Part shown: piece by piece, positions 20,652-48,960 of the stretch
Layout of the letters: each line of letters begins with the position of its first letter
Numbering within the stretch: the first letter of the stretch is position 1
DNA from: Dioscorea cayenensis subsp. rotundata
Taxonomy: Eukaryota; Streptophyta; Magnoliopsida; Dioscoreales; Dioscoreaceae
Length of the DNA stretch: 64,000 bases
Assembly (NCBI RefSeq): GCF_009730915.1
Contig: NC_052472.1
Location: forward strand, 1,922,001 to 1,986,000
Direction: 5' to 3'
Notes under the pieces: generated by a model
What the model was told of the DNA's origin: nothing
The model's database searches: none
What the model saw: the letters and a program-made list of their open reading frames with translations, nothing else
Made by a program: the position numbers and the translations under genes

Positions 20652-21754
20652 GGAATTAGAAAAAGCTTTGTTGGGGCTTGAATTAGAAGTTTATTAATCA
20701 GATGAGAACTGAGAAGAAGGGTTTCCAGACTGATGTATGAAGATAAATTAGTAAAGGACTCATGAGTCAATGGAAAAATTTGACTATCAAAGCCAGTATA
20801 AAACTATTATTATTATTAGTGAAAATTGCCAAAAAAACACCCTAAGTTTCCAATATTTTCAAAAACACCCTCTTAATTTGAGAATTCTTAAAAACCCCTT
20901 TTTTTTAAATTCAATGTTTTCCAACCCCCAAAGCATGTAACGGTGGTTAACAGAGTGATTTTTATGGACAAAATTGCCCGCGCATGGGAAGTCGTGGCAC
21001 TGCAATCATTTCGGCGGTTTAAGAGAAAGTGGCGTTAGGGTAATCCCAAGAGAGGACTTTAGTGGAGCCGTATACTTGTTTTTTCTCAACTCGCCTCTTC
21101 AGCTTTTCCCTTTCCGAAGTTGTCTCTACTGGAACATCCTCTACAATTTTAGCTTTTTTTTTTCCACCGGTGTCTCGAAGGAGAAGTCTCGCGCAAGTAT
21201 TCGGCATTTTATCAATATGCAATCTAAGGTATTGAAGAAGTTGTGATTATGGGTTTATGTTAACTATTCTGTTACAACAAAAGATTTTTCGGTTTTGTTT
21301 TATGGTTATGTTTTTATCGGAAGACATTGAAGCCTGCAGAGGGATTTATCGGTTGGGGTTTTGTTAGTCTGCAGGGAGATTTCTCGGCTAGGGTTTTGTT
21401 TTGTTTTACATTTTCTTCTGTGTAGACAATCGAAATAGTTTTCGATTGTTATGATTTGTGTAATGTTTATAATGTACGTTTCCCTTTTTCATTTGATATG
21501 TTTGAAGTTTTACAAATGAGGTCTCCGTTTAAGAAATGAGTTTTGGTTTAAAAAAATATGTCTCCATTTAAATATTATTGTCTTTGTTTAAGAAATGAGG
21601 TCTATGTTTAATAAGTGTTATCTCTGTTTAAAAATTGACAGGTTACCGTTTAACTTTTATTTCTAGCTTAAAAAATTATGAATACTGGTGAATGTGTTGT
21701 TATTGTCGCATGCTAGTGATTATGGCGGCTAACCTAGTTAATGGGTGATGCTAC

Positions 21755-22328
21755 TTGACACCGGTAGTGGAGACCTTGGCTGAATTGAAAGTTCACATGA
21801 TCCCTCGACACTGGGAGATCATCCGAAGGACATCGTTTGCAACACTTATTGAGTTGGAAGCTGTATTCCAAGAGCGGACCCTTCTTGATTCTCTGTTGCA
21901 AAGGTATGATGGCCGCACCAATAAATTCAGGATCAGGGGAAGTCTGCTAAGTTTTAGGCCTGAAGATGTGGCCCTCGTTCTTGGTCTGCGTTGAGATGGA
22001 GATGCAGTCGTGTTTCAGAAGAAGAAAACACGCTCAGCTTTCTAAGGGAGGTATTTATCAAAAACCTACGAGAGACACAGAGACTCCATCAAGAGAACTC
22101 TTGAGAAACTTGTTCGACAGAGGAGAGAAGAAGACAATTTTGTCAAACTCATGATGATGTATCTCATGAGTACAATCTTCTTCCCAAATACCTCATGCTC
22201 GGTTCCGAACTGGATCGTTGATTATGTCGATGATCTACCTGGCATGGGGCGATACGCATGGCGCGCAGGCGACGCACAAGTAGCTTATGGAAGACATTCC
22301 ACAAGCAGCCACTCTAGTGTAAACTAGA
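21755..22328 (+). pseudogene. Plant mobile domain (PMD) protein fragment, decayed
   Basis: One frame from 21755 reads a helical N-terminal part (HMIPRHWEIIRR), then LLDSLLQRYDGRTNKFRIRG and EDVALVLGLR, and after the stops EEDNFVKLMMMYLM, FPNTSCSVP and DDLPGMGRYAWRAG. This order (a short helical start, an F/H-x-F strand before EDVA-LLGL, then a helical core and a final YAW or YNWG motif) is that of the plant mobile domain family, which is frequent in plant transposons and in the MAIN/MAIL proteins. The frame is broken by TGA after GLR (21992) and by a TAA about 50 nt later, and ends at a stop near 22328. It is therefore not functional as read. The second stop may reflect frameshifts instead. 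Family assignment is from motif memory. Confidence 0.55.
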
Positions 22329-22631
22329 TACGCGGGGAAGAAGACCAACACAGGGATACTATAAACTTGCCATCTGCCACCTGCCAACACTTTAGTTTAA
22401 ACGTAAAAGATAAATATTTTAAGCAGAGACATAAAATGTTTAAATGATAAATTAAAATTTTAAACAGTAATTTAAATAGTTAAATACTAACAAATAAATT
22501 AAACGAAGAAGACAATGTTTAAATGGAAACGTAATGTATTTAAACGGAGATGGGAAAAGTTAAACAATAATGAACGTATATAACTAGATAAACATAAAAG
22601 AGAAGAATCTCACAACGAGAAAAACTCGTTT

Positions 22632-22820
22632 TCAGTAGGATTCGACAATGGCACATTGTCTGTCTCGACAAGATCGACAATAGCACATCCGCTGGAAGTC
22701 AACCTCCTTTTCTATTAGACAAATCGTTTTATATCCATCGGGTGTGATAAACTTCACCCTGACACGGGAAACATCGAGACCCCATCGCTCACGTATCTCA
22801 GCTGAGCTAACACCGATTCC
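22632..22820 (-). pseudogene. PB1-like N-terminal fragment of a Mutator-type transposase
   Basis: The - strand frame contains VRVKFITPDGYKTICLIEKE followed by VDFQRMCY. The pattern 'V-x-V-K-x-P-x-x-x-K-T-L/I ... D-x-D-x-x-x-M' is that of the PB1-like domain at the start of many plant Mutator transposases. Only about 60 residues survive and the frame then ends in TGA. Its position just inside the right terminus, reading inward, is where a transposase gene would start. No DDE catalytic core is present, so the element would be non-autonomous. Confidence 0.4.
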
Positions 22821-23212
22821 CAAGAAGTCACTGCCGTGAACATTAGCACTCGAATCGAAGAAATTCTCTCCTTATCAAGAAACCGGCAGAATTCAAATCG
22901 AACAAACCAATTAAGGAGAAGAAGAAAAAGAAGAAGATGTGATGAGCCTTCTAAACTTTGTTTGACAAAAAGCAAGCGTAAAAGGCATGCAAAATTGTAT
23001 GTATAAAGGTTGGACATGATGTGATTGGGCGGTTTTTTCCCGCTATTTTCAAGGGCAAAAATGAAATTTCATAACATGGACCCATTTGAAGTGAACGGTA
23101 GGGGGTAAAAGGGAAGTTGAACAATAACGGAAGGGTTATCCGGGGTTTGCCAAAGTTGGAGGGACTATTTGGGAATATTTGAAATTCACGAGGGATAAAT
23201 AGTAATTTTCCC

Positions 23213-23834
23213 TTATTATTATTATTATTATTATTATAAAACTGTATTTTTATTTTTCTCCTTAGTATGGGGCTCACCCCATCAGCAACGGATGAGGTTT
23301 ACCGTATTTATTTTTATTTCCCAATTTTAGTAAGGGTTAATGATAAAAAAATAAAAAAATTAGATAATATAAACTCTATATCAATGGCAGGGTCAAGTGG
23401 CGTGCAACTTTTTGAGGGGTCAGATAAGGCGTCCGAGGTTCTTGAATTGAAAGTTTTGGTCACATGTTGGGAGGTTGTTGAAACATGGGAGGAAGAGATA
23501 TTGGTGGCTCCCATGAATGGGTTTGTTGGGCTTTATTTTGGAGTGGTCCTGGTACCAATTGGGGGATATTTCTCTGATCAGACTGAAGACCCTCTTGTGG
23601 TATGTGATGTGGGCAACTTTGTGCGTCATGATGGTACTCTTGTTTCTAAAGTAAGTGAGAAGAGGCTTACATTGAGTGATGGGCCAGATTTGCCTAGTGG
23701 GTTGGGGATGGGCACCTCTATGTGTACCATCCAACGCAATTTGGATTATATTGGTCGTCGCTTGGAGATGGTTAGTGGGGCACCCACATTGGTAGAAACC
23801 GCATATCACTTCACACTTTGCCATTCTTCTTTAA
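23213..23834. other. Segment between Mutator element A and the Tourist MITE
   Basis: After the ATT microsatellite, the strings ATAAAACTGTATTTTTATTTTTC and onward resemble the DNA upstream of copy 3 (near 40520-40560), so this resumes the ancestral upstream block. The remainder is occupied by an unexplained open frame described separately. Confidence 0.4.
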
Positions 23835-23887
23835 GGGCTTGTTTGGATGGGCCAGAATTATGGCATAATCTGTATAATATGCCATAA
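23267..23887 (+). CDS. Unrecognised open frame of 206 codons
   Basis: I do not recognise this protein. The frame is 206 codons, starts at ATG 23267 (a second ATG, SMAGSSGVQLF, at about 23381 starts a more protein-like part), and has mixed, non-repetitive composition with stretches such as LVTCWEVVETWEEEIL and RLTLSDGPDLPSGLG. No membrane segment or catalytic motif is evident. The last 17 codons run into the terminus of the Tourist MITE at 23835, so the native 3' end is lost or this is a truncated exon or gene fragment. It lies between two transposons in the disrupted upstream block of copy 2 and has no counterpart upstream of copy 3, which suggests inserted cargo. It may equally be chance. 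Confidence 0.2.
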   Translation: MGLTPSATDEVYRIYFYFPILVRVNDKKIKKLDNINSISMAGSSGVQLFEGSDKASEVLELKVLVTCWEVVETWEEEILVAPMNGFVGLYFGVVLVPIGGYFSDQTEDPLVVCDVGNFVRHDGTLVSKVSEKRLTLSDGPDLPSGLGMGTSMCTIQRNLDYIGRRLEMVSGAPTLVETAYHFTLCHSSLRACLDGPELWHNLYNMP

Positions 23888-24499
23888 TTTAATATTTTCT
23901 GAGAATTATGCCATATTGGCTGTTTGGGTACTTATTTTAGAGTTTAAAATTATGGCATAATATAGGCATTATGGCATAAAAAAATATTCCACTCCTAGTG
24001 GAATATTTTTTTATTGTAAAAAGTCTTTCTCTTTTGATCTAGCAACCAACTACCAGTCCACCGGTGGCTCGGCCAGCCTCCGGCCGGCGGTCCAACCGGC
24101 CTCCGGCGACCGGTCATCGGTCCACCGACGGTCGGATCACCTGTCCACCGGCCTCCGGTGACACATCGGTGATCCACCGGTGGTCCAACAGGCTTCCAGC
24201 AACTGGTCACCGGTCCACCGGTCTCCGGTGACACGCCGGCGATACACTAGTGGTCTGCCCGGATAGCCTTTGGTGACACACCAGCGATCCACCAGTGCTC
24301 CAGCTGACCTCCGATGACCGACCACAGGTCCATTGGTGGTCTAGTTGCCGATCGGTCGATCTCCATAATTTTTTTTATTTTGTTAACCAAACACTCATTA
24401 TGTAAGAATAAAATATGCTATAATTTCTGTAATAATCACTTGCACTTCCTACATAATAAAATTATGCAATATTTTTTTATTTTGCAGCCAAACAGGCCC
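23835..24499. mobile_element. Tourist-type (PIF/Harbinger) MITE
   Basis: The left end GGGCTTGTTTGG and right end CCAAACAGGCCC form a 12-bp inverted repeat with one mismatch. Each is flanked by TAA (23832-23834 and 24500-24502). A GGGCCTGTTTGG-like terminus with a TWA duplication is the signature of PIF/Harbinger MITEs. It is 665 bp long, non-coding, with subterminal repeats of ATTATGGCATAAT-like text and a GC-rich minisatellite in its centre. Confidence 0.85.
24040..24365. repeat. GC-rich minisatellite inside the Tourist MITE
   Basis: Degenerate tandem units rich in CACCGGT, CCTCCGG and GATCCACC strings make a GC-rich core of about 325 bp inside an otherwise AT-rich element. The open frames on both strands here are products of the repeat, not genes. 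Confidence 0.7.
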
Positions 24500-24502
24500 T
24501 AA

Positions 24503-24770
24503 AGAGAGATGAAATATTATTTTAAAAACTTATTGGGTATTTAAAAAATATTTGTGGCCTAAGACATCTTTAAAACTTTGCCTAGGAGCTCTCTGTCCTT
24601 ACTACTTAACTGGCAACAGCATATCAAGATTAGATGTGTGAGGTGACCACGAAGCCAATTATTCTCTGGTCTTTTACTTAAAAAGTTCCCAACTTAGAAA
24701 GAAAAAGTAGACATACATTTCTTTAGATATTATTATATAAAATGCTAGGTTATCTTTATCTTAATAAAAG
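24503..24770. other. Remnant of the ancestral block upstream of copy 2
   Basis: The text around 24528-24635 (TTATTGGGTATTT, ATTTGTGGCCTA, then GAGCTCTCTG and CAACAGCATATCAAGAT) matches 41003-41035 and 41287-41338 upstream of copy 3. This is homologous flanking DNA left between insertions. Confidence 0.65.
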
Positions 24771-25033
24771 TAGAGAGGGGCACAGATCGGTTAACCAGGC
24801 CTGACGGACCCAACCCGCCGGGTCCGATTCACTGGACGACGGACCAGGAATCGTCCCGTGCTACAGGATAGACCCGCCGGGCCTGGTTGACCCGGCAGAA
24901 TTTCCAGGTCCTGCTCAACACAGAACTCGCCGGGTCTGGGCCAGGCTCGACTGGTTTTTACATTATTATTGTTATTATATTAAATGATAGTTTATTATTA
25001 AATTCAAAATTTAAAAAATTGGTGTGATGGAAG

Positions 25034-25095
25034 GGATTCGAACCAAAATACACCAAATAGGACATCTTTACCTTTACCAATTGCCCTACAAACTT
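25034..25095 (-). mobile_element. tRNA-derived SINE-like remnant
   Basis: On the - strand a perfect B-box consensus, GGTTCGAATCC (25044-25034), is preceded about 40 nt upstream by an imperfect A-box-like TAGGGCAATTGG. This is the internal RNA polymerase III promoter layout of tRNA-derived SINEs. Stems of a true tRNA are not formed, and no clear ends or tail are visible. Confidence 0.35.
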
Positions 25096-25621: not shown

Positions 25622-25660
<39 letters not shown>

Positions 25661-26874: not shown

Positions 26875-26894
26875 TTGGTCGGTGCCCACCTCTA

Positions 26895-29800
26895 GTGGTA
26901 ATTATCAAAAACACCTTGGAAGTTGTCAACGTGCACAATTTGCCCTCTTAATTTTGAGTATTCCTAAAAGCTCTTTCCTTTTGAATCCACTTATTTTCAA
27001 ACCCCTCAATCATGTAACGGTGTGAAACGGAGTTAGTTTTGGATTGATTGGACGATAATGTCCCTTGCCAGGGAAGTTGTGGCAACCATCACATGGTTGG
27101 AAATGATGATAATGCCCTTTAACTGCAACCACTTTGGCCTGGTGAGATATAAGTGGAGAGGAACCTAAGAGAACTTCATTACTGGCGCAACCTTTGTCCA
27201 CTCTTAGCCTCTTCATCTTTCACCTCTTCGTCAAGCTTCTCATTCCTAGACATCTTCTCTTGGGCCTAATTTTCATTCGACTAATCAACCATAGGGGAAT
27301 TTCCGGTTTTCATTCCATACAAGTCATTAGTTTGCGCTTGAAGGTAGAAAGGCAAGTTGGAACAAATGAAGATTTGTGAATGTATTTTTTTTTTTTTTAG
27401 TTTTTTTGCCTTTTTGATTTGTAATGTAATCGGTTACGAAGAAAGATTTTTCGGTTTTATAGTGTGATTATGGGTTGATCTGGTAGTTAGGCATGGCTAG
27501 GGTTTTGTTTATCATTTTTCTCTGTGTATGCAACCCAAAGCGATAATGTTGCATTTAAGGAGATTTTTTTCTTTGGACCTGTCATTTGTTATGCAGATCT
27601 CACATGTGTGTTTTCTCCATGGTGATGTCTAATTTGTATAATGTATGTTTCCCCTTTTAATTTGACATGGTTACATTATGTGTGTTAGGTAAGTCATTTC
27701 CGTTTAACAATTTTTGTTTCTGTTTAAGTTTACGAGTTTTCGTGTCACTTTGGTTTTTTCTGTTTAAGAAAACTTGTTCCTATTTAACAATATTGGTTCT
27801 TGTTTAAGTTTTTTGGTTCCCGTTTAACAATTATTATTTCTAGTTATGAACGTACTCTTATGCTAAATTAGAATTATTTTGTGTTTCATAGTTGCTATGT
27901 CACTTAACTATCGTTGTTTTTGCTTAGTCATCGATAGGATGCAAGATCTTTGGTTGTGACTAGCCATGTGGTAGCGACTATAGCGGACGCTTGTGAAGAA
28001 CCTAAAATTTAAGCATCAACAAATTAGTGTAAACGGTAACAAGTGTTCTTAAGAGAAAATAATGTACGTTAAGCATTATCAGATGTAATTAAAAAAAAAA
28101 CTAATCAAATACGCAAGAACAAATCCATGTCCATACAAATCGTTGTCCAATATCCAACAACGAAACTTCAGATTGATCGGACGAGGGTTCATTGTAAGAT
28201 CTTCTTGGAAGCAAGCATCGTTAGGACCCATGTTGTCATCGCTCGATGGCAATTATGTAATAAGTCATTGAGAATATGCGTTATAATTTCACATTGTATG
28301 TTAATATGTGTCTGGTAAGTTGTTTTTGTTTAGAAAACTTTGTTTCTATTTAAGTTTATGTGCTTTCGTGTAACTTTGGTCCTTTTTTTCGTTTTAAATA
28401 ATTCGTTCTTGTTTAACAATATTGGTTATTGTTTAATTTTAGGGGTTACCTTTTAACATTATTACTTTTTGTTTAAGTTAACCCAGAAGCTGAATCTGAA
28501 TCCCTGGTAAAATAGAAGATTAAATACAAACATAAAATATTAAGTGGAAACTACATTAATTGAGCGAAAATAGAAAATCCTAATGTGTTCAAACAATGTG
28601 AACATAAAGGAGAGTCATGCAAGGAAGAGATAGCCGGCAAGGAAAATATTGTATGATTCAATCAATCACACCTCCTTTGGTATGATTGAGAATCAATCAA
28701 TCAATCACACATTCTTGGTATGATTGATTGATCCTCAAATCATAACAAAAATGCATAATTGATTGATTCTCAATCATACTAACGAAGGTGTGATTGATTA
28801 ATCCTCAAATCATGCCATGTAACATTATGTGATTACATGCTTAATATATTATGTTTTCATTTATCCGTATGTATTTTTATTTACATAATGTTGTTATCAT
28901 TTAATATAAGCCTTTTGTATTTATCATTAGTTATTTCTGTTTAAAAAGATTTCATACGTAACAATGAAACCATACTTAACCAACATGCATTAACTACTTT
29001 GAATATACTTAATGAAATACATTCAATAGTTCCAAAATGCGTGACAAAAGCATTTGTAACCAACATAACTAATCATTTATGCTTAGTCAACGATAGGTCA
29101 TTGAGAATATGTGTTATAATTTCACATTATATGTTAACATGTGTCTAGTAAGTCGTTTTTGTTTAGAAAACTTTGTTTCTTTTTAAGTTTACAAGTTTTT
29201 GTGTAACTTTGGTCTTTTCTGTTTAAGATAATTTGTTTTTGTTTAACTATATTGGTTATTTTTTAAGTAAATACATTAACATATTTTGATAAAAGTAAAC
29301 ATGTTAACTTAAACTGGAAATAATAATTTTAAATGAGACCCTGTAACTTAAACAAGAACCAATATTGTTAAACAGAAACAAGTTTTCTTAAACAGAAAAG
29401 ACCAAAGTTACATGAAAACGCATAAACTTAAACAGAAATAGGAGAACTCCCATAGCACATTGGCTACAAATTCGAAGACTCGTTTTAATCCGTGCAAGTC
29501 AAAGGTCATGCTCTAAGGTAGGGAGACAAGTTGGGAATGGATGAAGAAGATCAACAATGAGAATATGCATGATTTCTACGCAACCCAAAACGAGAATTTC
29601 TTTTGGTTGTCTTTTGTTATGCAAACTTACATGTGTGTATTCCATGGTGTCAACTTGGCAAGGAAGAGATGGTAGCCAAGGTTACACAAATGGCCAAAAG
29701 GATGAAAATAGAAAAATGCCAAGACACCTTATAGGGGAACCAGAAAAACTCCAAGACACCAAATGGGATGTAAAACTCCAAAACACGAAGTGGGGAACAA

Positions 29801-30051
29801 TAAAACTCCAAGAGTCCAAGATGAAAGATGGTTCAAGGTACAATTTTTTAAAAAATGATGTGATTGGGAAATTCTTTTCCCACCACTGCCAAGGGTAAGG
29901 TTGGAATTCACTCAAACAAAGCTAGAAGGACTGAGTTGCAAGGGGCAAAAATGAAGTAAAACCAAAAGGAAGGGCTATCCGGGATGTTCATAACTTAGAG
30001 GGGTTGTTTGGAAAGATTTGAAATTCCTAAGGGGTAAACAATAATTTTCCC
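26895..30051. mobile_element. Mutator-like element B (non-autonomous)
   Basis: The left end GTGGTAATTATCAAAAACACC and right end ATAATTTTCCC, with the subterminal CCCTCTTAATTTTGAG, AACGG and CTATCCGGG texts, match elements A and C. There is no 9-bp duplication at these coordinates. TAATAAAA occurs after the right end (30052-30059) and also at 24762-24769, left of the outer hAT-like element, which may mean the two form one composite insertion. The interior has no transposase but holds arrays of GTTTAA-type repeats (27695-27845, 28315-28490, 29145-29275, then inverted 29275-29440) and a foldback at 28660-28799. Confidence 0.6.
28660..28799. repeat. Foldback with about 43-bp arms
   Basis: The sequence from 28660 (AATCAATCACACC...) is nearly the exact complement of 28757-28799 (ending GGTGTGATTGATT), with a 54-nt loop that repeats the same TGATTGATTG text. 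It could form a strong hairpin in RNA or be a nested small MITE. Confidence 0.7.
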
Positions 30052-31180: not shown

Positions 31181-32080
31181 GATGTAATTTTCAGGAATAC
31201 TCAACCAAGGTTTGAGGCAATTGTTAGCAGAGCTTTAGCCCACATAAATGACTATCGTACGGGTAGCAGGAGTTTATAAGGCAAAAGACTTATTCTCAAC
31301 AACTTTCCTTGGACGGATAAGTATTTCTTATTCATTTTCACCTATCACAACATCAACAGAGATGTATTTCAGTTGGTTTCTTTGCTTCGAGTTCTAATTA
31401 TGCTATCTCCATTGCAGGCTGTCTCTCTCGGCCTGCATTTGACAACACTAATGGAGAGTTGTTTGCAATGGATGTGGCCTTACAAACCGCTTTGGATGTG
31501 GCCACAAGACTTTTACCGACGGTAAAAGCAGTGTTGGAATAGGTATTTTTACCGTTGGTATAGAGTTTTAAAACCTTTACCAACGAATTATTGATTTTTA
31601 CCAACATTTTTTATACTGTTACTATATGGCAATTTATTTGTAGTGTGGGTATTCCAATTAGACAAGTGTTAATCACCAACTAATCAGTTATTGATTCATT
31701 GAACAGCCAATAGCTTGGCGATGGAATGAGAATATTTTCAACTTGAATTTCCTCATGGATATGAAGGCAACCCTCGTTTTCACGTTATTCCAAAGACTTG
31801 GATTCACCCTGCTATCAATCTTGCTAACCATAGAGCTAGTTTTCAAACTCTGAATCTCTTTTTGTTTGGTAGTGATTTTCCTCATTGGATTATGAAAAGC
31901 TTCATTGTTGATGGCTTTAGCTTTAGTAATTAGTTGGTTTCAGTAACCTGTGATCTTCTTTTTTGTTTTTTCTTTCCTTTTCATTCAGTTCTTAGGATTC
32001 TTTCTGTAGTTGTGGTGCTTTCATTTTGTAATTTACTTGGTGTTTAATAAATTAGCACCATTTGGGGTTCTTTAAAAAAA
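31181..32080 (+). pseudogene. LINE 3' remnant (RNase H-like end of the polyprotein)
   Basis: Broken frames on + spell the C-terminal part of a plant LINE polyprotein: FRNTQPRFEAIVSRALAHI near 31195, then AGCLSRPAFDNTNGELFAMD near 31413 (an RNase H-like region), and a last frame ending FPHWIMKSFIVDGFSFSN before TAG at about 31932. A 3' UTR of some 150 bp and an A run (32072-32080) follow, as expected for a LINE. There are frameshifts and stops throughout and a CACTA MITE inside, so it is dead. It inserted into the copy 2 upstream block; the copy 3 block lacks it. Confidence 0.6.
31502..31645. mobile_element. Short CACTA-type MITE inside the LINE remnant
   Basis: This 144-bp insertion begins CCACAAGACTTTTACCGACGG-like (a degraded CACTACAAGA start followed by the usual TTTACCGACGG) and ends TTTGTAGTG. 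It is flanked by TGG on both sides (31499-31501 and 31646-31648), a 3-bp duplication as in CACTA elements. Removing it restores the LINE frame across ALDVG-IPIRQV, which supports the boundaries. Confidence 0.65.
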
Positions 32081-34323: not shown

Positions 34324-34328
34324 GTGTT

Positions 34329-34360
<32 letters not shown>

Positions 34361-34983: not shown

Positions 34984-37900
34984 CTAAAGCTTTCCACAAT
35001 CATAATATGTCTTCTTAATCTTAGTCCTAGCCATAATTCCAACCAACATCTTCTCTGTCAGAAATCTTGTGAATGCATTATCACCTTGTTGAATACTTCC
35101 AAATACATAAGAAGTGAAGACAAGATCAAAGTCCCTCCATTTTCTTTCCGCAACATAATTCTCCAATCCTGATTTAACTCTAACATACTCATCTTCTTTT
35201 GCATCTCCATTGTCATTTCCCTTCAAAGCTTGAGCCAAGCATCTCGCAAGAACGACGGCGTCCTCTAATGCCGCACAACCTCCTTGGCCAAGTTCCGGTG
35301 TCATCGGATGCAATGCATCACCGGCCACAGTAACATTTCCTTTACATATGTTCCGCCAAAGGAGCTCCCATGGCCACCGGAATTTTAGTGGGAAGGATAC
35401 TGAATCACCCATGTCACTCTTTTCAATTAGTTGTATGAAATTATGCGGGACATTTGCTTCTTGCATCTTGGTTATCACAAATTGTCTCATCTTGGTTGCA
35501 TCCTTCTCCATTTCCTTGTCTAACATTTCAAGAGAAGGAACAAAAGGTTTTTTTTTTTTGACAAGTTATGTTTTGAATCTAATGTGCGAACATACAATGG
35601 ATTAAACTGTTTTTGTACTATGATGCAATGTTCTCAATGTTCTTGTAGCAAATAATAATTGATAATAAGTAAAAGAAAAAAAAATCAAAATTACGTACAA
35701 TAAATAATAGTAAAACAGGGCCAGATCACTTAAATCCTCTGGATATATAGATTCATACAAAATTTGATTCATAAACTCTAATAGTTATAATTCATGTATT
35801 TCTATTTTCTTTTTATTCAATTTAATGCAGAAACATAATATCTTCTCTTTTTGTGGCACATATATTGTCAATAAAAATGATAATTTTTTTTTATTAACAC
35901 ATAATGTGTCTAGCTAGTTGAAGAAAAGAAAAGAAAAGAAAAATGAAACTTTGTAAATCAAATCAAACATTTTAAAGTAGAGAAATGACAAATAAACACC
36001 ATGCATGCCTTATTTGTATGTCCATATATAGATAAATATGTAGAGTAGAGCTTGCCTTTTGATGATGAAGACCAATTGAAGTACCAATACATGCTTTTCT
36101 CATCACAAGGCATTATGCCAGCTCGGAAACCTTGCCCAAATAATTGAACAAACTCAGGGTTGAAGCCATGGCCATCAGGAAACTCAGTAAAACCTCTAGT
36201 TGCTGACCGTCCGGCAAATGATGGCTTCTTCAGTCCTAACCATTTAGATACTACCGAGCTCACTCCATCACAACCTATCAACACCTGTTAATTACCAACA
36301 AATAAGAAAGACGATGATTTGTGCTTGTAATTATTAACTAGAAATCATAACAAAATAATTGCAAGACATGAACTCTAAAGTTTTCTCTTCATTTATTTCT
36401 TGTTGTTTTTTATAACTTTTCATTCATTTGTGTCACTGATATTGATATTTTGGTGCCATAAATTTGATCGTTTTGGCTCCAAGTTTCATAGTTTTGAGTA
36501 GTGAATAGAGAACAACAGAAACAATTGGAAGACAACATCAGAGGTAAATTTATATAAAAATACACCAAAATAATCAAGAGATTAATATAACATCTCCTTC
36601 ATTTGTTTCATTCATATTGATAATTACATTACTTGATTCTCCTCAATTAATTAGTTTTCCTTCATGTATTACAGCCTTTCATCAATTACTTTAACTGATA
36701 CTTACATGCAGAAACCATAGTAATAGAACTAAACAACCAACAAATTTTTTTTTTTTTTGAATAATAGACGACAAGCGCCCTTTTTATATGAATATAAATA
36801 GTACTGAACAGTATTGGAACCAGGATGTACAGTATATATATAGTATGAGAATAGTATAAGAATCCCGGATGAACAGTGTATGAACAATATGATGAACAGT
36901 GCTACCAGGGAAGGGATTTGAACCCATGACTTCCCCCTTATACTTTGGTGTCATACCATGGGCTATCCAATGGTTGACTACCACCAACAAATTATAAACC
37001 TCTTTTCAAATAGTTTTTGCTGATACTGGAGGTTTATAATTTGACATATGTCATTACCGTAGTTTTCATTATGGATTAAAGAACAACAAAGATGAAAAGA
37101 CAACAATTAATGACAGAGATATGCTATATACAAATGTACTGAAACAAAATTTTCATCGATTAGTTTCATTAATGCCAATATTTAAATGCCTCAGTTTTCA
37201 CTAATTTGCTTTTCTATCAGATTTGTGCGCGCATGCCATATATATATAGGTTTCAGGTGTGAATTGAAAACAACAAAATAAGCGATAAATTACTAACTTT
37301 CACTGATTTCTTTTACCTTATTTTCATCAATTTTATTTACTTGTTAGATATAAAAGATCAGAGGTAAACTCTATCTTACACAAACATACAGAAATAATCA
37401 AGATTGGAAACATTTAGTTCATTAATTTTACTGATTCTTCTCATATGCATATACTTTTTCTTTTCATCAATTTATGTTTTGTATGGCATGTAGAACTACA
37501 AATACACCGGATTTTCATTGTAGGATCAGTAACTTTTCATTCATTGATTCTTATCAATACTCAGAAATCACATTACCTTAGTTTTCAATGTTGAGCCATT
37601 TGATAAATGTAAGACTTTCAAGTTCCCGGATTCCTCAATTAATACAACCTTTGATGAATATCGAATTGTATCACTTGGAAGCTCCTTTGCAAGTGTTTCT
37701 AAAAGCAAATCTCTCCTCACACACCGCATTTCAGGCCCTTCACTGCAATTCTCAGAAATTTTGCATGTTTTCGGTATATTGTCAAAAATTTAACATCAGC
37801 TTTGATTACAGGCAAGTATTTAGATTTCGTATAAATCTAAGTTATATTCTGCACTATTTCTGTTGAAAACTAAGCGCATAGCTAGCACTCGTGGCAAGAA

Positions 37901-39374
37901 TTGGGCCTAACAGTTATCACATGTTCAGATAGATGTGTTGGGGATGCAGTTGCTGATATTTTAATTCTATTTGCAGTTTGATTATCGATATTTTAGTTAG
38001 AAGTGTATTATTTGGTTCAAATCGCAAAAATTTGAGTCGGTTAAATAAGTGTTTTTGAATTCAAATACTTGTGTAAATAAAAAAAAATCTACTAGAAGAG
38101 ATCTATCCCTTTATGAAGTTCCTAGTGCATCACACTGGATTAATTTAGATTATTTTGGAGAACATGTGACTATTAAAAATCAGTGAACAGTCATTGTTTT
38201 AAATTAGATAGTACTCATACCAAATACACTTAGGTGCCATTTGGTTGAATGTCGAAAATTTAACATCGGCTTTGATAACAGGCAAGTATTTAGATTTCGT
38301 ATAAATCTAATATTTTGCACTATTTCTGTTGAAAACTAAGCGCATAGCTAGCATTCGTGGCAAGAATTGGGCCTAACAGTTATCACATGTTCAGATAGAT
38401 GTGTTGGGGATGCAGTTGCTGATATTTTAATTCTATTTGCAGTTTGATTATCGATATTTTAGTTAGAAGTGTATTATTTGGTTCAAATCGCAAAAATTTG
38501 AGTTAGTTAAATAAGTGTTTTTGAATTCAAATACTTGTGTAAGTAAAAAAAAAATCTACTAGAAGAGATCTATCCCTTTATGAAGTTCCTAGTGCATCAC
38601 ACTGGATTAATTTAGATTATTTTGGAGAACATGTGACTATTAAAAATCAGTGAACAATCGTTACATTAAATTAGATAGTACTCATACCAAATACACTTAG
38701 GTGGCGTTTGGTTGAATGTAAGTTTAAATGCAGTGAATTTCCAGTTACAATGTAATTTGAAGTACTTGCTTTTTAAAATATAATGCAGCCAAATTTAGTG
38801 TTTGGTTGTATGCACTTAGAGATGTTGTATTATAAAATTTTATGTTTGGTTGGAGAGATTTGTTATATATATATATATGTGTATATACACATATACATAT
38901 ATATGTATATTTACATATTTACATATGTATATTTATACAAACATACATATGTATGTTTATATTTATATATATACACTTATACACACACTTATACATATAC
39001 ATACATACATGCATGCATGTATATATACATGTGTATAGGTGTATGTATATGTGTGTATATATGCATATATACATATGTGTATATGAGAATATATATATCT
39101 GTATAAGTATATATATAAGTGTCTATATATATGCATGTATGCATATATGAGTATATGTAAAGATATTATGTATAGGTATATATGTATCTATGTAGAGGTG
39201 TACATATGTAAACATACCCATGTATGTTTATATATATATATATATATATATGCATGTGTGTGTATATATGCATATGCATATGTGTATGTGTATATATCTC
39301 TATATATGTATATATATGCATGTGTGTGTATATATGCATATGCATATGTGTATGTGTATATATCTCTATATATG

Positions 39375-39414
<40 letters not shown>

Positions 39415-39771
39415 TATGAATTCATATGCATAGACATATTAATGTATATGCATATGTATATATACACATATATACATCACCAAAAGATTTTTAACGTCGG
39501 GATTTCAACTTACGCCCAATTTGGACGTAAGTCCAAATACATCCGTGGGAGTAATTGATTTTATCTTGAAATGTTTAAATACATTGTAATTTCAAATACC
39601 ACAAAACAAACACTATCTTACATTTTTGAAATATTTGCATATACCAATTTTTGCTAATCAAACATTATTATTATCAACAACTTATGCTAACATTGGTATA
39701 ACCTAACAATGAAACACAGGATTCCCGCAACAGAATGAATAATATAAATAGTGATTTATTGACTATATCAC

Positions 39772-39818
<47 letters not shown>

Positions 39819-40350: not shown

Positions 40351-41573
40351 TGATAAAATTAGTAGTTTATCAGATGAGAAACAAAGCTTTCAAACTGATC
40401 TATGTTAAGTAGACAAAAAGAAAAAGACCCATTAGTCAATTAAAAAAAAAAGGACACGTGGTGCTATCAAGTCCATAATAATTGCAAGGTTTTTTAAAAT
40501 TTAATTATTATTTTTTTTATAAAATTATATTTTTATTTTCCAATTTTTTCAACCACGCATATAGGGTATCAAGTCCATAATATTCCAAGGTTTTTTAAAG
40601 TTTAATTATTATTATGATTATGATTATTATTATAAAATTATATTTTTATTTTTCAAATTTTTCAACCAAGCATAGAGGGTATCAACTATCAAGTCCTTAA
40701 TAATTCCAAGGTTTTTTAAAATTTTAAGAAAAATATTGTGACAAATTAATAAATAATTTTTTTAGTATAATTTTTTTATAATTGAGTGAAAATAATCTTA
40801 TAATAATATCTCTCTATATATAAATATAAAATAATTTTTCTATTGGACAAGGTAAAATAAAACCAATACCTACCTACTCAGCATTCTTTGTTAAAAAAAA
40901 GACATATCCGATTAAAAACCGCGGATCTATTCACGCATTATTATTCCTTAATATAGTTTAAAAAAGAAGATGTTATATTATTTTTAAAATTTTAAAATTT
41001 TATTGGGTATTTTAAAAAATATTTGTGGCCTAGAAATCTTTTTGATGAAAGTGACAAGTACACCAAGGGCGTGTGCACAGGCTCAGAATTAATCGTTTAA
41101 CCCGCACACTCTCAGCCGGGGAGGAGGAGATTGAGCTACGAGTCTGCACCCACAACCAACGATCCGTTGCTATTATTATTTCTAATGAGTCTTGAACTCG
41201 AGATCTTTTAAATATCTCACTCTCTCGCTTTCTTTAATAAGGTCAAATATCTCTAGGCTATGAGCCTTTTGGTGCTTTAAAACTATAACTAAGAGCTTTC
41301 TGGCCTTGCTATTTTTTTTGGCAACATCGTATCAAGATAAAAAAAAAGATAGGGGCATGTAATTTCACTATTTTTCAGAGGGTGATATGTAAAATTATTA
41401 CAACGGAAAACACTGAGATTTTAATGTTTTTGATAATAATGTTATGTTAAGTTATAAAAGAAAGAGAAAAAACCAAAACTAACTGAAAAATCAAATAAAA
41501 TTTTATGTGTTTGCATTTGAAACAATCATTAGGATCATAATGAAAATTTTTTTTCATAACATAGAGCATTGGG
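40351..41573. other. Upstream region of monooxygenase copy 3
   Basis: Two related blocks of about 120 bp (near 40456-40560 and 40563-40690) each contain ATCAAGTCC, AAGGTTTTTTAAA and ATAAAATTATATTTTTATTTT. The part near 41003-41035 and 41287-41340 matches 24528-24640 upstream of copy 2, with an extra roughly 250-bp fragment (41036-41286) containing the dispersed CTGCACCCACAACCAACGATCC repeat. A promoter is presumably near 40360-40420, but no clear TATA box is chosen. Confidence 0.5.
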
Positions 41574-44500
41574 AAGGTGCTCTTCACTGGGTCTTTCTGC
41601 CTTTCTGTGGAATTTACCAATGTCTCCGATAATTCCCATTGGGTATGCACAACAGTGTACGGACCCAACTATAGACACCTGAAGGAAGTTTTTTGGGAAG
41701 AAATAAGATTATGCCAAACTGATTTACCTTGGGTTATTTGTGGCGACTTTAACACTATTTTTTCAGTCAGTGACAAGAATGGGGGTGTCCCCAATCTAGT
41801 AGATATCAACTCCGCTCAGAACCTTCTAAATGACCTCAATCTATGTGAACCACCTTTGGTTGGGAGAAAATTCACCTGGACCAACGGTCAAATCGACCCA
41901 ACTTGGGTTCGCCTTGATCGTTTTCTTGTTAATCCAGCTTGGATCTCTCTTTTTCCTAGAGTTCATCAAACAAGCCTCCCGAGATTAGGATTTGATCATG
42001 TTCCTTTAAGGTTGGAAGCTGGTGTTTTTCTTCCTAAGGTCAAGCGCTTCAGATTCGAGCAAGTGTGGTTCTTGGAGAATAATTTGGGGGAACTTATTCA
42101 AGAATGGTGGTTGGAGAATGCTCCGGAAGGTTGCGGGGCTTTCATCCTAGCAAAAAAACTCAAGAGACTCAAAGGAAAACTAAGGGAGTGGGCCAAAGTT
42201 AGCTTTGGGTGAATAAAATTGAAAAAGCTCGGAATTCTTAATGAACTGGATGGTTTTGATCTCATAAAGGAGACCAGGAGTCTAACTCTTGAGGAGAATC
42301 AAAGACAAAATGAGTTGCTTACTTCTCTTAACACCCTGCTCAAACAAGAGGAGATATACTGGCGTCAAAGATCTAGAGTCAAATGGGTCAAAGAAGGAGA
42401 TGAAAACACTAAATTCTTTCATGCTTTTGCGAATGGAAGGCGCAACAGGAATTACATCCCACGACTTCTAGTTAACAACAATTTGGTGGAAGGATCAAAG
42501 GAGTTAGGGCGAACCTTTGCTAATCATTTTCGATCTTATTTTGGATCAAATGAGGGGTTCCGCTTCTTATTCTCTTGGAACACGCTCTAAAGAGGAAAAC
42601 AGAGGGTAGATCTCACACCCCTAGAATTCCCATTCTCAAGAGAAGAGATTAAGCAAGCCACATTCGATCTAGGAGCAGACAAAGCCCCGGGACCAGATGA
42701 TTTCCCAATTTCTTTCTTCCAAAAATATTGGTTCATCGTAGAAAGTGACATTCTCAATCTCTGTGCTGGATTTTACGATGGAACGACTAACCTGGAAAGA
42801 ATCAATTGGGCGAGCATTATGCTAATTCCTAAACTTGATAACCCGGAAAGCCCAAGTGATTTTCGGCCAATTAGTCTTATAAATTCTGTTCTTAAAATCC
42901 TCTTCAAAATTTTGGCAAATAGACTAAGCAAGATCATCGACTCCATCATTGATCATTCCCAATCCGCTTTCATCAAAGGAAGATGCATTCTTGACAACAT
43001 CATGGCGGCGGAAGAGCTCATCTTTAGCCTACAAAAGCGACGCATCAAAGGACATATAGTTAAAGTTGACTTTGCTAAAGCCTTCGACATGGTAAATTGG
43101 GAATTTTTAGTGGAACTTATGCATGCTTATGGTTTTGGATCAAAGTGGATTGGATGGGTCAAAGCAATTCTCCTGTCCTCAAAAGCTAACTTTATTGTAA
43201 ATGGCGAACAGAATGGATATGTTAGATACCTTCGTGGGCTGAGACAGGGAGATCCACTTTCACCCCTTCTCTTTGCCCTAGTTACTGACGTCCTAAGCCT
43301 TATGTTCAAACATGCTTTGAACTCAGGGATTTTGTATGGAGTACCTATCGGGAATTGGGGCAAAATGTGCAATTTACAATACGCAGATAACCTGCTAATC
43401 GTGACAGCATGCGGTGTTGAGGACTTGAGAATCATTAAACTCATTCTGTTGCTTTTTCAAAGCATGTCTGGGCTAGCGGTCAACTTCCATAAAACATGTT
43501 TATTTGAATCCTCAGGTATTCAATTACCTAATAACCATCTAGCAAGGACACTCAACTGTACAAGGGGTACTCTCCCGGTATTTTACCTCGGTGTGCCAAT
43601 CTCTGGCAAAAGACCTCGTAGGCAAGACTGGGAGATTCTAATTGTAAAAATTCGTTCTAAATTAACTTCTTGGAAATCCAAGCTTTTATCTCTAGGTGGA
43701 CGACTAACACTCGTCAACTCTGTTCTTTCTGCCGTCCCAACCTATTGGATGTCCATTTTTAGACTTCCCTCTTGGGTTATCAAAGCTATTGATAGGATTA
43801 GGAGGGATTTCCTTTGGTCAGGTGCAGAAAATGATAAACCTAAGATGCGTTTAGTCAGTTGGAATCGTATCTGCAGACCCAGAGAACATGGGGGTTGGGG
43901 AATTATAAATTTAGATGACTTCAATCTTGCACTCTTAGGGAAATGGTGGTGGAAATTTACCACCGGAGTACCTTGGTGTGGAAGAGAGATAATTCTTTAT
44001 AATTATTTCCAATATTCCCCGCTTTGGAATCTCCATAATCGCCCCCCACAAAGAAGGTCATTTATCTGGAATGGCCTCTTACAATGTCTTCCTGCCTTTA
44101 GAAATTGTATTCCTTCAATTGTACACAATGGGGACTCCACTCTTTTTTGGCTTGATAAATGGGTGGAGAATCGTGCGCCAATGTTACTTTGGCCAGAGCA
44201 GTTCATCCTCTCCAATCGCTCCTTTGATACAGTTCAAAATCTGGCTCATTTATTACAATCTCCTTGGTTCGTAGACGGGACTCACTCTACAATTGGGCTC
44301 TTAAGTAGCAGTGTCCCAAACACACATGGTCTGAGAGATAGCAAAAAGTGGAGTCTTACGGCAAATGGAAGATACTACGTCAAATCGTTTCTACGGTTTT
44401 CTTAGACACGGGCGCAGTGGCGGGGAGCCATGTGTAAGACCACCAATTTGATTTGGAAGAGTCCTTGTCCAAAAAAAATTTGTGTTTAGTTGGCTAGCTT

Positions 44501-45165
44501 AGGACAATAGTATCCTCACTCAAGATAAGCTGGCAGCACGAGGATGTAACAGACTCCCCACTGCGACATGTGATATGTGTAACGCAGGCATTGAAACTGT
44601 TGATCACTTATTCTTTTTCCCCGCCCATTTGCCACGCTTTATCCGGAATTCTCTCATTCCAATTTTTTTCGACTACTGCCACCTCACGATCGGCTCATGC
44701 TCTTTGGGGATCTTGGAGGCCCAAACTCTCTTCTCATGTGAGAGATGCGGGGGACCTCATTATCCGTGCTTTAATGTGGAACATTTGGCTAGAAAGAAAT
44801 GCTCGCATTTTTAGGGATACATACTCTGCATGTAAATCTGTATTATGCAAATGTATTCATATGTTTCTACTTTGGTTGAATGCAGTACCAGATAAAAAAA
44901 AGCCAAGATTGGAGGATTTAGCGGTGTCTGCTAAACGCAGCCTGGACTTCCTGAATGACCAGCCAAGATCCGGCGAAGAAGACAAAGCTGAGTAGTCAGT
45001 GATTTTTTTACCCTAACCTTTGGGTGGGTTAGGGGTCTTGTTATGTTATTTTGTTTCGACCTTGTTATCTTGTACTTTGTTTTTGCTCCACTTCTAGTGG
45101 ATGTTGCTTGGACTTATTTTCAGTTAATGCATGTGGTTTATTCACTTTTTCAAACAAAAAAAAAA
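41574..45165 (+). mobile_element. 5'-truncated L1-type LINE
   Basis: About 3.6 kb from within the endonuclease domain to an A run at 45156-45165. The host sequence on either side (ATAACATAGAG left, CATTTTTTGGTAAATGC right) is contiguous at 30474-30515 upstream of copy 2, which gives an empty site. No clear target duplication remains. Domain content is described under the pseudogene entry. Confidence 0.85.
41577..44995 (+). pseudogene. LINE polyprotein: endonuclease C-terminal part, reverse transcriptase, zinc-binding region
   Basis: One frame runs from 41577 to 44405, broken by two in-frame stops (TGA at 42210, TAA at 42588). It reads the end of an AP-type endonuclease (WVICGDFNT, FTWTNGQ, RLDRFLV, FDHVPL), then reverse transcriptase (DFRPISLINS, SAFIKGRCILDN, VDFAKAFDMVNW, LRGLRQGDPLSPLLFAL). 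The catalytic YADD box has become YADN. A zf-RVT-like segment follows in shifted frames (CDMCNAGIETVDHLFF near 44570). The N-terminal half of the endonuclease and the first open frame are missing. Nonsense codons, frameshifts and the active-site change show it is dead. It is relatively well preserved, so insertion was not ancient, consistent with its absence from the copy 2 block. Confidence 0.9.
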
Positions 45166-45390
45166 CATTTTTTGGTAAATGCAAGTGAAAATTGAAACTA
45201 AATATAGAGAGTAAGTGCTTTTAATCAAATTTTTATAAATAATAAAGAAATTGATATCTGGTTAATTTATTTTTATTTTAATGCATGTAAATTATTTTTT
45301 TGTCATTATTTTTCATTTAAAAATGATACTCATGAGTTTGTGTTTCTGAAAATTCTCATTTTTTTTAAATGTTTGACTTATTGGCCACCA

Positions 45391-45441
<51 letters not shown>

Positions 45442-45940
45442 TTTCAATACCCAATCTTCATATGTCACGTATAGTAACTAACATCTTAGGTTTTTTTTTA
45501 AAAAATAAATTTTAATATTAATCTAGCAATTTTTAAGCCAAGGTTACATAATAAACATCGTGCTAAGATATTCTATTTTATTTATTTATTTATTGTTATC
45601 GAATTTGATTTGTTTATTTTGCAAAATAATTCGATAAAAAAAATTTATATAAGAAACAAATACACACATGCGATCCATGACCAACAATTATTTGGTCTAT
45701 TATGTAAAAAGTATTTATTTTGTTGAGGAGACAGATTTGAATCTTAACTCGAACACATAGAGAGCACTATTGTTGTAGAGCTTAAGTCATCGCATGTACA
45801 CGTCCCTAACACGTGATTTGTCCACATTTGTATATATATATTAAAAAAAAAATACATGAGATGGCTATGCTAGTTAGAAAAACTTAAGTTTTCTTATTAT
45901 AGTCATAATTTAATGGTATCAAAGTTTGGATTAAATAGTA
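45166..45940. other. Resumed upstream block of copy 3
   Basis: Homologous to 30500-31040 and 32130-32180 upstream of copy 2, and in its first 200 bp to 14680-14960 upstream of copy 1. It contains an ATT microsatellite (45391-45440) and SINE-like text near 45690. No gene. Confidence 0.6.
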
Positions 45941-46241
45941 CTCCCTCCATTCCAAAATACATGTCGATTTAAGAAAAAAAAATTATTCCAAAATAAATGT
46001 CGTTTTACAATATAAAGGCAATATTTATTATTATTATTTTTTTCAATTTTACCCATTTTCAATTTCCTAAGTTATATAAATGAACAGAGTAATATTTATA
46101 ATCCAAAAAAAAATATATGGTTCCAAGAGAGGGATAATTTATTAATTTGGATGTTTTTTATGTTAACTTTTAAAAAATTTAATGCTATGCTTAATTCTTG
46201 TACAACATCCTTAAACGATATGTAATTTGGAATGGAGGGAG
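45941..46241 (+). mobile_element. Stowaway MITE 1 (Tc1/mariner type)
   Basis: The termini CTCCCTCCATTCC and GGAATGGAGGGAG are perfect inverted repeats, flanked by TA on each side (45939-45940 and 46242-46243). It is 301 bp and non-coding. CTCCCTCC ends with a TA duplication define Stowaway. Its interior is the reverse complement of the element at 46290. Confidence 0.95.
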
Positions 46242-46289
46242 TACCAATAATATACATGATATGAAGGTGATGAAAATGAGAAGAACATA

Positions 46290-46904
46290 CTCCCTCCATT
46301 TCAAAATACAAGTTGTTTAAGTATGTTGGACAAGATTTAAGAATATCATTAAATTTTCTAAAATTTAACATAAAAATTATCCAAATTACTAAACTATCCC
46401 TCTTTTGGGACCATATATATATATTTGGAACTATCAATATTACTCTCTTCATTTATACTCCCTCCTTTCCTTTTTAGTTGCCACATTTAACTAATTCACA
46501 CCGATTAAGAAAAATTGGTTAAAATTAGTTGATTACCTATATTTTATACAAAAAAATCATTACTTTACAAAATTACCCCTATTTAAAACCCCACTAGTGG
46601 AGAATATAATTTAATGCTTAATTGATTTTTTTTATTGGAAATTGTACAAGTATATTAAATTAAAGGCTAAATTTAAAAGAAATTATTTAATGATGCACAA
46701 AGTTTATAATGTGACAAGTAAAAAAGAACAGAGAAGAGCTCCGAAAAGTGACAACTAAAAAAGAATGGAGGGTGTATAACTTAGGAAATTGAAGATGGGT
46801 AAAATTAGAAAAAAAATAATAAATATTGCCTTGATATTGTAAAAACAACTATTTTAGAATAAATTTTTTCTCTTAAAACGACTTGTATTTCAGAATGGAG
46901 GGAG
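46290..46904 (-). mobile_element. Stowaway MITE 2, interrupted
   Basis: The termini CTCCCTCCATTTC and GAATGGAGGGAG are flanked by TA (46288-46289 and 46905-46906). Without the nested element it would be about 296 bp, the size of MITE 1, whose interior it matches in inverted orientation. The two copies 48 bp apart form a long imperfect inverted repeat. Confidence 0.92.
46458..46774. mobile_element. Stowaway MITE 3, nested in MITE 2
   Basis: The termini CTCCCTCCTTTCC and GAATGGAGGGTG are flanked by TA (46456-46457 and 46775-46776). It is 317 bp and belongs to a different subfamily (TTTTTAGTTGCCACATTT subterminus). It landed inside MITE 2, so it is the youngest of the three. Confidence 0.92.
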
Positions 46905-47329
46905 TAATTTTCTTTTGGATATTAGGGCAATTTTAATAGTTATACTAGCATAGAATTTGATGCTTATGTTACATCATCAATCCATTAAACTCTTATTCAT
47001 TATACTATCTCCCATAATAATTATACCATAATGCATAATATGAAACCAACAATTATTTTATTCATCTTTTTAACTATTTAAATTATATGTTTTTTAAAGT
47101 GGAAATTGCTAAAAACACCCTCAAAATTTGCAATATGCACAGATTCTCCCCTTAAATTTGGCTATCCATAAAAACCCCTTCCTTTTGAATACAATGATTT
47201 TTTAAACCCCCCAAACATCTAACAGTGATTGATAGAGTTAATTTGGAATTTTTTGGACGAAATTGTCGCTCGCGTGGGAAGTTGTGGCAAGTGTGACAGG
47301 GTTTGACTATAATGCCCTTGGGTGCAATG

Positions 47330-47630
47330 AGCTTCTATTTAAAAATGAGGCTTCTATTTAAAATATGAGGTATGAGGTTCTGTTTAAAAAATGAGTTTCT
47401 TGTTTAAAAAATGAGTTTTCTATTTAAAAAAATTAGTTTTTTGTTTAAAAAAATGAGTTTTCTGTTTAAGAAATGAGTTTTTTGTTAAAAAAAAAAAAGA
47501 GTTTTCTGTTTAATAAATGAGGTTTCTGTTTAAAAAAATAAGGTCTCTGTTTAAGAAATGAGTTTTCTGTTTAAGAAATGAGGTTTTTGTTTAAAAAAAT
47601 GAAGTCTCTATTTAAGAAATGAGTTTTTTG
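47330..47630 (+). repeat. GTTTAAGAAATGAG array, left
   Basis: About 14 units of a 20-22 bp repeat built on TTTCTGTTTAAGAAATGAG with A-run length variation. The same motif recurs in elements A (21525-21640) and B and in the right array of this element. Confidence 0.85.
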
Positions 47631-47639
47631 GGGTGTATT

Positions 47640-48297
47640 TATCACCCCCCAAAATCTCTTTATTGCAGTTGGGCTGGGCCAGTGAGACAAAGCATGCGGC
47701 TCACAATCACAGTCACGTTGCATGAAAACTGGGATTTCGAACCCTAGAATTTTGATCTCCACCTCGATCTAGATCTCGATCTTGCCAGAGAAAAAGGTGC
47801 AACCTTTCGATGCCTTCGCTCGACGACGAGGAGCGTGCGGTCTTCCCCGAGGTCGACGACGAAAAAGATGAAAGAAATGAGGTCGACGACAGGGAAGACG
47901 ATGAAGATGAAGACGAAGACGAAGACGGCGAGATCGAACCCTCATCGGCGCCGCTTCCTCCCTCAGTTCCCGTCACCGACTTAGGCACCATGGATAGAAA
48001 CCCCAGAATGATCCCTAACCCTAACCCTAACCCTATTGATATCCATGTTGCGGTCTCCGCAGTCAAGAATGGTTCCGTTCAAGTTCAGCCTGTCTTATCC
48101 GACGTCGCCACCGAAGACCTCACCACTCCGACCGTCGAGGAACGTCGCCAACCGGATCGCCAACACCGACAAAGATTTCTCTTTTAAGACCCCACACGAG
48201 CAGACCACCTTCGAGATCGCTCGCCAGATCTGGAGCTCAGGACTCAAGCGTTCGCGCGAGATATGCGACAATGAGATACTCAATATCCCTACTCAAT
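47640..48297 (+). pseudogene. Captured host gene fragment (5' region and acidic N-terminal coding part)
   Basis: An abrupt GC-rich, codon-like island between two AT-rich arrays. From ATG 47810 a frame of 125 codons reads an acidic N terminus (MPSLDDEERAVFPEVDDEKD, then D/E-rich), a PNPNPNP stretch and ends at 48187. A second frame overlapping it reads NRIANTDKDFSFKTPHEQTT, then FEIARQIWSSGLKRSREICD to a stop at 48299, and looks more protein-like after about 48140. A frameshift or lost intron between them is likely. I do not recognise the parent gene. The antisense polyserine frame is a shadow of the acidic codons. The island includes about 170 bp of leader-like sequence upstream, as is usual when Mutator elements capture gene 5' ends. 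Confidence 0.55.
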
Positions 48298-48760
48298 GAG
48301 GTTTCTGTTTAAAAAAATGAGGTCTCTGTTTAAAAAATAAGCTCTCTGTTTAAGAAATGAGTTCTCTGTTTATATGCTTGTTTGTCTTTGTTTAACTATC
48401 GATGTTTTTGTTTAATATATTGCGTTTACGTTTAAAAAAAGTGATTAAATATCGTTGTTTCTATTTAAATATGTACGAGTGGCCAAGATTAATTGGTTTT
48501 TATATCCAGGATTAATTTATCACGTAAATATTTGTTTTTCTGTTTAAATATTAATGTTTTTGTTTAAAAAATGAGTTTTATGTTTAAAAAAATGAGGTTT
48601 CTGTTTAAGAAATGAGTTTTCTGTTTAAGAAATGAGTTTTTTGTTTAAGAAATGAGGTTTCTGTTTAAGAAATGAACACTCTTTTTAAGAAATGAACTCT
48701 CTGTTTAAGAAATGAGTTCTCTGTTTAAAAAATGAGCTCTCTGTTTAAGAAATAAGTACA
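48298..48760 (+). repeat. GTTTAAGAAATGAG array, right
   Basis: A second array of the same unit in the same orientation as the left array, interrupted by a unique stretch near 48375-48540. Together the arrays bracket the captured fragment. Confidence 0.85.
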
Positions 48761-48960
48761 TGCAAAAAGAAATGCAAAAAAGAATGAAAAAAATGTATGC
48801 AAAAATGTTTAAGGGCAATGATGGAATTTCATAATGCAGGGGGTAAAAAGGAAGTGAAACAATAAAGGAAGGGCTGTCTGAGGTATGCAAAACTCACAGG
48901 GGCTGTTTGGGAAGTTTTGAAATTATCGAGGGGTAAACAGTAATTTTCCCTTTTTTAAAA

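Follow-up and report, generated by a model that had tools for sequence, protein, structure and literature searches.

Arrayed GTTTAA motifs in a Mutator-like element family of Dioscorea cayenensis subsp. rotundata as candidate docking sites for a VANC-like anti-silencing factor

VANC21, from the Arabidopsis transposon VANDAL21, binds the sequence YAGTATTAY, and these motifs lie in tandem repeats of non-coding DNA (PMC5735166). The targets of VANC proteins are described as gaining and losing repeats quickly, as being of two motif types, and as containing units that diverge together within a repeat (PMC5735166). VANC carries DUF1985, and VANC21 removes silencing from its own family (PMC10398659). 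VANDALs further have the transposase VANA, and their arrays lose DNA methylation upon VANC expression. In the accounts available to us, Arabidopsis VANDALs are the only transposons described as counteracting silencing in a sequence-specific way, with mention of relatives in eudicots (PMC13317346). Here we report on three elements (A, B and C) that carry arrays of the short motif GTTTAA in a 64,000-nucleotide stretch of DNA from Dioscorea cayenensis subsp. rotundata (hereafter the window; NCBI RefSeq assembly GCF_009730915.1, contig NC_052472.1, positions 1,922,001 to 1,986,000 of the forward strand). These arrays resemble the Arabidopsis VANDAL/VANC system and do not copy it, as the motif differs. 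We tentatively regard the arrays as predicted protein-binding sites for a VANC-like anti-silencing factor supplied in trans, a reading to which we assign a probability of roughly 0.42 and which we favor because the arrays, their turnover and their motif change match the pattern of VANC targets, the motif itself differing.

A sequence-only reading of this DNA had stated that no standard Mutator feature explains such arrays. This is not quite right, since VANDALs are Mutator-like and have VANC-bound motif arrays in non-coding DNA (PMC5735166). The elements are like VANDAL21 and VANDAL6 in their probable superfamily and apparently in having poor or no terminal inverted repeats (PMC5735166, PMC6446971), and like VANDALs in their non-coding tandem arrays of a short motif, with gain and loss of units, two motif types and units that change together (PMC5735166). 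In contrast, the motif here is GTTTAA or GCTTAA in 20-bp units rather than YAGTATTAY or AGTTGTMC, all three elements hold cargo and are non-autonomous, the VANC-like factor is putative, and VANDALs have been placed in Brassicaceae (PMC6446971). A gene remnant in A gives a faint plant mobile domain (PMD) and DUF1985 signal, which recalls KAONASHI/KIU (VANC with a Ulp1 domain) and the Mutator-like elements (MULEs) with a captured PMD, all of them Mutator-like and equipped with an additional gene for which a role in silencing is proposed (PMC13317346, PMC5418596); our elements differ in that no Ulp1 match was found among the scanned open reading frames and in that the PMD/DUF1985 signal lies under the Pfam cut-offs. 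Rehavkus is also Mutator-related and has a minisatellite before its 3′ end, but is reported from insects and annelids (PMC6446971). A GTTTAA array in a Mutator-like element was not found in the available portions of the literature, which is not proof of absence. Pack-MULEs resemble C in its small size (1.85 kb), its 9-bp duplication and perhaps its fragment resembling a piece of a host gene (GeBP-like, below the cut-off). C differs from them in that arrays flank its cargo left and right and in the tandem duplication of cargo and array, neither of which is, to our knowledge, part of the Pack-MULE definition. The accessible text of one account makes no mention of either feature in Pack-MULEs (PMC13317346).

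The exact limits of A, B and C were set by their terminal GTG...CCC. Shared terminal text had been claimed for the three, and in pairwise comparison their 5′ ends are indeed 72.4, 71.8 and 72.9% identical and their 3′ ends 80.9, 70.3 and 80.3% identical. The terminal ~200 bp and the arrays are common to all three and nearly nothing else is (for A and C, among the matches listed); A and B additionally share three blocks of 38-54 bp to the left of the array. MULEs have target-site duplications of 8-11 bp (PMC6446971), and a duplication of this size is clear in one of the three elements, C, where the perfect 9-bp repeat reported by the sequence-only reading, TTTTTTAAA, lies directly at either side. 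A has TTATTATTA at either side, within a TTA microsatellite, which makes this weak evidence, and no duplication was found in the flanks of B (CCACCTCTA and TAATAAAAA). Autonomous MULEs encode a transposase with a DDE domain, and the terminal inverted repeats of MULEs are often long and in some cases missing. When the two ends of each element were compared with one another, the first 20 bases were no more alike than shuffled sequences (z −0.6 to 1.6), and over 60 or 180 bases a weak similarity was detected (best z of 4.8 in A, 6.8 in B and 3.2 in C), which fits a degenerate inverted repeat. These data are best read as a single Mutator-like family of which A, B and C are non-autonomous representatives. 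The Mutator-like assignment made earlier fits the 9-bp duplication at C and the degenerate long inverted similarity of the ends. Contamination controls, which are of small value here, gave no match for C against plasmids or for B against phages.

Counted on both strands and compared with 500 shuffles per element, GTTTAA occurs 15 times in A (shuffle mean 3.1, maximum 11), 27 times in C (mean 2.6, maximum 8) and 16 times in B (mean 5.7, maximum 16). The count in B was equalled by at least one shuffle, and therefore the claim of an array in B rests on spacing. Among same-strand gaps of up to 65 bp in the three elements, 38 of 44 fall within 1 bp of 20, 40 or 60 bp, for which even chance would be about 14%. 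By element these are 7 of 10 gaps in A, 20 of 23 in C and all 11 in B, those of B being near 20 or 40 bp. Since the gaps of a tandem array are not independent and the units of A and B have drifted apart, the gaps of A and B (18 of 21 together) carry most weight; the ~20-bp spacing is kept in both despite differing sequence between the motifs. The 56.6 kb of the window outside the elements hold 48 GTTTAA motifs with one same-strand gap of up to 65 bp, which at 18 bp is not near 20. A longer form, GTTTAAGAAATGAG, was matched 22 times in the window with up to two mismatches (100 shuffles gave a mean of 1.6 and a maximum of 8). Of these matches 18 lie in C, three in A and one at 32042, outside any element; B has none and holds the shorter core only. 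In B and C the motif lies in the consensus T(T)TCTGTTTAA; the consensus around it in A is weaker. Thus the presence of GTTTAA arrays in all three elements, as proposed from the sequence alone, is borne out, for A and C by count and for B by spacing, and in each element the tandem motif arrays lie in non-coding parts, as they do in VANDALs.

The orientation of the motifs differs between the elements. In C, 26 of the 27 motifs lie on the + strand, in agreement with the direct arrays described for both of its sides. Opposite orientations had been described for the two sides of A and B, and this is correct for B, where 11 left and inner motifs on + are followed by five right motifs on −. For A the description stands only for the left array, which is on +; its right side is mixed, with five motifs on − and three on +, and two of these three represent one GTTTAAAC site counted on both strands.

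A genome of 584 Mb in 2,249 contigs was searched with the 3′ end of C. The 3′ 150 bases were matched at all 40 places scored, C included, at 98-100% over the full query, and because these were 40 of 1,276 first-look candidates the count is a lower bound of at least 40 copies. Eight loci (L001, which is C, and seven others), a biased sample in that they were selected as nearly identical to C, were compared over the 1,650 bases that lead to the 3′ terminus. From L001 to L008 the stretch holds 26, 18, 23, 18, 8, 22, 22 and 6 GTTTAA motifs and 0, 3, 1, 6, 15, 0, 2 and 14 GCTTAA or GCTTTAA motifs, respectively, and in each of the eight loci the 1,500 bases beyond the element end hold 0-1 GTTTAA. 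The cargo of C was matched in every locus, and a module of cargo and inner array has been duplicated in tandem in L002, L004, L005, L007 and L008. Copies differ in length by whole ~20-bp units, and they are most alike over the extreme 100-150 bases, which are free of arrays. In this sample of near-identical loci, the earlier idea that the arrays serve as spacers for cargo capture finds no support, as array and cargo travel as one module. Independent variation of array and cargo was not seen, arrays and the same cargo being present in eight of eight loci. No copy lacking the arrays was found among these eight, all of which were chosen by near-identity to C. As a separate observation, the 3′ flank of L004 has the same nine bases (TTTTTTAAA) as C in different surroundings, which hints at an AT-rich target preference.

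The motif itself has changed in some copies. The changed motifs of L008 read GCTTAA in place of GTTTAA, a change of T to C at the second base. With L007 as reference, GC replaces GT at 10 of 20 aligned motifs, against T-to-C changes at 29 of the 428 T positions elsewhere (p 7.7e-7), and with L002 as reference the corresponding figures are 7 of 18 motifs and 31 of 414 other T positions (p 3.7e-4). In L005, 15 of 23 motif-like sites are GCTTAA or GCTTTAA, the latter form accounting for nine sites there and for four in L004. Furthermore, dispersed motifs outside the tandem blocks of L008 and L005 have changed together with the arrayed ones.

Under the VANC-like reading, an autonomous relative would supply the binding protein in trans to the non-autonomous A, B and C. 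This VANC-like factor would settle on the arrays and strip silencing marks from the element, and with silencing removed the element could be transcribed and moved. Arrays would expand and contract by whole ~20-bp units, and with changes in the binding protein or in the host defense a new motif form could spread across a single element. We infer protein binding, the VANC-like nature of the protein and its action against silencing; support comes from how little A, B and C have in common beyond the arrays and the terminal ~200 bp, and from the near-confinement of the motif to the inside of the element in all eight loci. Several results weigh against this reading. The window showed no intact element gene, be it for VANC, for a transposase or for another protein. 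YAGTATTAY occurs seven times in the window and never in A, B or C, and AGTTGTMC does not occur in the window, so that the three elements contain neither of the motifs known for VANC21 and VANC6. Pieces of the A remnant match PMD with E 0.0051 (16.5 bits; Pfam cut-off 34.9) and DUF1985 with E 0.042 (14.3 bits; Pfam cut-off 35.1), far under both cut-offs, and on a single piece the unrelated JMY (E 0.041) scores as well as DUF1985 (E 0.064) and PMD (E 0.092). The T-to-C test for L005 alone is not significant (3 of 20 versus 18 of 428, p 0.06). Additionally, the motif core changes no less than the flanking sequence in these close copies, whether L007 (29 of 487 versus 58 of 1,125, p 0.55) or L002 (25 of 418 versus 47 of 989, p 0.36) is used as reference. 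No purifying selection on the core is therefore seen, contrary to expectation.

Other explanations of the arrays were judged to be less probable than VANC-like binding sites. Arrays also occur mid-element in C and B, between and after cargo, and they have been duplicated with the cargo, which end recognition does not need. These positions make it unlikely that the arrays are subterminal binding sites of the family's own transposase, used for pairing the ends before excision, even though each of the three elements has arrays inward of both termini, regular spacing would suit cooperative binding, and, in the accounts available to us, the Herves (hAT) and Galileo (P) transposases bind several near-end sites. 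The single direction of the C arrays, where end recognition would favor a mirror orientation, and the lack of any array in the extreme 100-150 bases also speak against transposase sites. A neutral minisatellite of single ancestral origin, persisting by slippage and hitch-hiking, would readily produce gains and losses in whole units, a low-complexity composition and a core that changes at a rate not lower than the sequence beside it. We nevertheless find it rather unlikely, as A and B have mostly lost the similarity of their units yet keep the motif and the 20-bp register, and as slippage alone is insufficient for the joint change of dispersed and arrayed motifs in L008 and L005.

Inverted arrays could also be transcribed into hairpins that enter small-RNA pathways of silencing or regulation, which we consider very improbable. 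The arrays of C are direct, this type is the one seen in all eight loci, and the folding of C 47380-48370 does not exceed chance (z −0.55, with 5 of 20 shuffles as good); A 21600-22590 does outdo all of its 20 shuffles (z −4.6), with a minimum free energy that includes the gene remnant and not the arrays alone. A different kind of alternative concerns only the direction of motif change, so that its probability is not exclusive with those of the readings of array function: the changes might be decay of methylated cytosines (CGCTTAA to TGTTTAA) and not a switch in specificity. A change of GCTTAA to GTTTAA is a C-to-T change, and L008 is the richest in CpG of the eight loci (115 in 1,650 bases; 60-104 in the others). 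Decay of this kind seems improbable, as motif positions would need far more change than other C positions, and as GCTTTAA differs from GTTTAA in length, a difference that deamination cannot make.

The VANC-like reading can be extended, although we regard the extended form as doubtful. In it, a Mutator-like lineage outside the known VANDALs would have its own sequence-specific anti-silencing system with a new motif, GTTTAA, that is changing to GCTTAA in one subfamily. The 20-bp pitch would allow a PMD/DUF1985-type protein to align on a single face of the DNA. Non-autonomous elements with gene fragments would keep and duplicate docking arrays with their cargo to stay visible to this protein, and the motif change in close copies would be a snapshot of protein and target changing together. 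If true, there would be another family with an arrayed motif of its own, many copies and two motif forms among close relatives, in which one could ask whether arrayed targets are a general Mutator-like answer to silencing and in what way protein and motif change together. If the arrays are instead transposase sites or neutral repeats, the family is still a clear case of an array duplicated with captured cargo. The interest of the proposed mechanism hangs on the autonomous partner.

Table 1. Elements, arrays and other features located in the window (positions are those of the window).
Feature	Positions	Strand	Basis or details
Element A	20819..23212	+	Mutator-like; both termini match B and C; no intact gene seen
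A left GTTTAA array, 6 motifs	21527..21653	+	gaps 19, 40, 20, 20, 22
A gene remnant, shifted frames	21749..22327	+	sub-threshold similarity to PMD/DUF1985
A right GTTTAA group, 5 motifs on − and 3 on +	22395..22565	−	motif positions
Element B	26895..30051	+	both termini match A and C; flanks unlike, no target-site duplication seen
B left GTTTAA array, 5 motifs	27702..27827	+	gaps 20, 40, 40, 20
B inner GTTTAA motifs, 6, in loose groups	28411..29246	+	motif positions
B right GTTTAA array, 5 motifs, opposite orientation	29309..29433	−	gaps 39, 20, 20, 40
C left target-site duplication TTTTTTAAA	47090..47098		flank comparison
Element C	47099..48950	+	termini match A and B; size 1.85 kb
C left array, 20-bp units	47326..47627	+	Tandem Repeats Finder rows; motif positions
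C module, cargo and inner array	47797..48481	+	C positions 699-1383; tandem twice in 5 of 8 loci
C cargo part, weak similarity to GeBP-like DNA-binding domain	48012..48299	+	E 0.0012, 20 bits (cut-off 29.5)
C inner array, 6 GTTTAA motifs	48295..48435	+	tandem repeats; motif positions
C right array, 20-bp units	48536..48757	+	period 20, 11.1 copies; motif positions
C right target-site duplication TTTTTTAAA	48951..48959		flank comparison

The matches of the A remnant to PMD/DUF1985 and of the C cargo to the GeBP-like domain are leads and not identifications. Within the C cargo, positions 48013-48035 contain CCCTAA repeated 3.8 times, and one frame reads through this run as a series of Asn-Pro; the run may be coding rather than telomeric. 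Element B contains diverged 35-bp repeats at 28675-28813 with a sub-threshold match to MIR9746 on both strands. Between 20600 and 49200 no Rfam family reached its gathering score. The 33 Rfam matches at E up to 0.1 were all under gathering scores, most of them in a TA-rich tract at 38864-39474 that contains 2.3 copies of a 66-bp unit at 98%, and they were rejected as low complexity.

Four of the seven YAGTATTAY sites of the window lie within 450 bases (15236-15689), outside the elements found here, and possibly belong to an AT-rich repeat. A run of long frames at 41565-44992 (+), between B and C, presumably encodes an endonuclease and a reverse transcriptase of the long interspersed nuclear element (LINE) type. 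Four similar open frames at 10655-11251, 17214-17825, 34987-35565 and 50153-50701, all on the − strand, share the motif GDA(L/F)HPMTP(D/E)LGQGGC, which we take to be from flavin adenine dinucleotide (FAD)-dependent monooxygenases. The four frames appear to form a tandem gene cluster into which the elements have been inserted.

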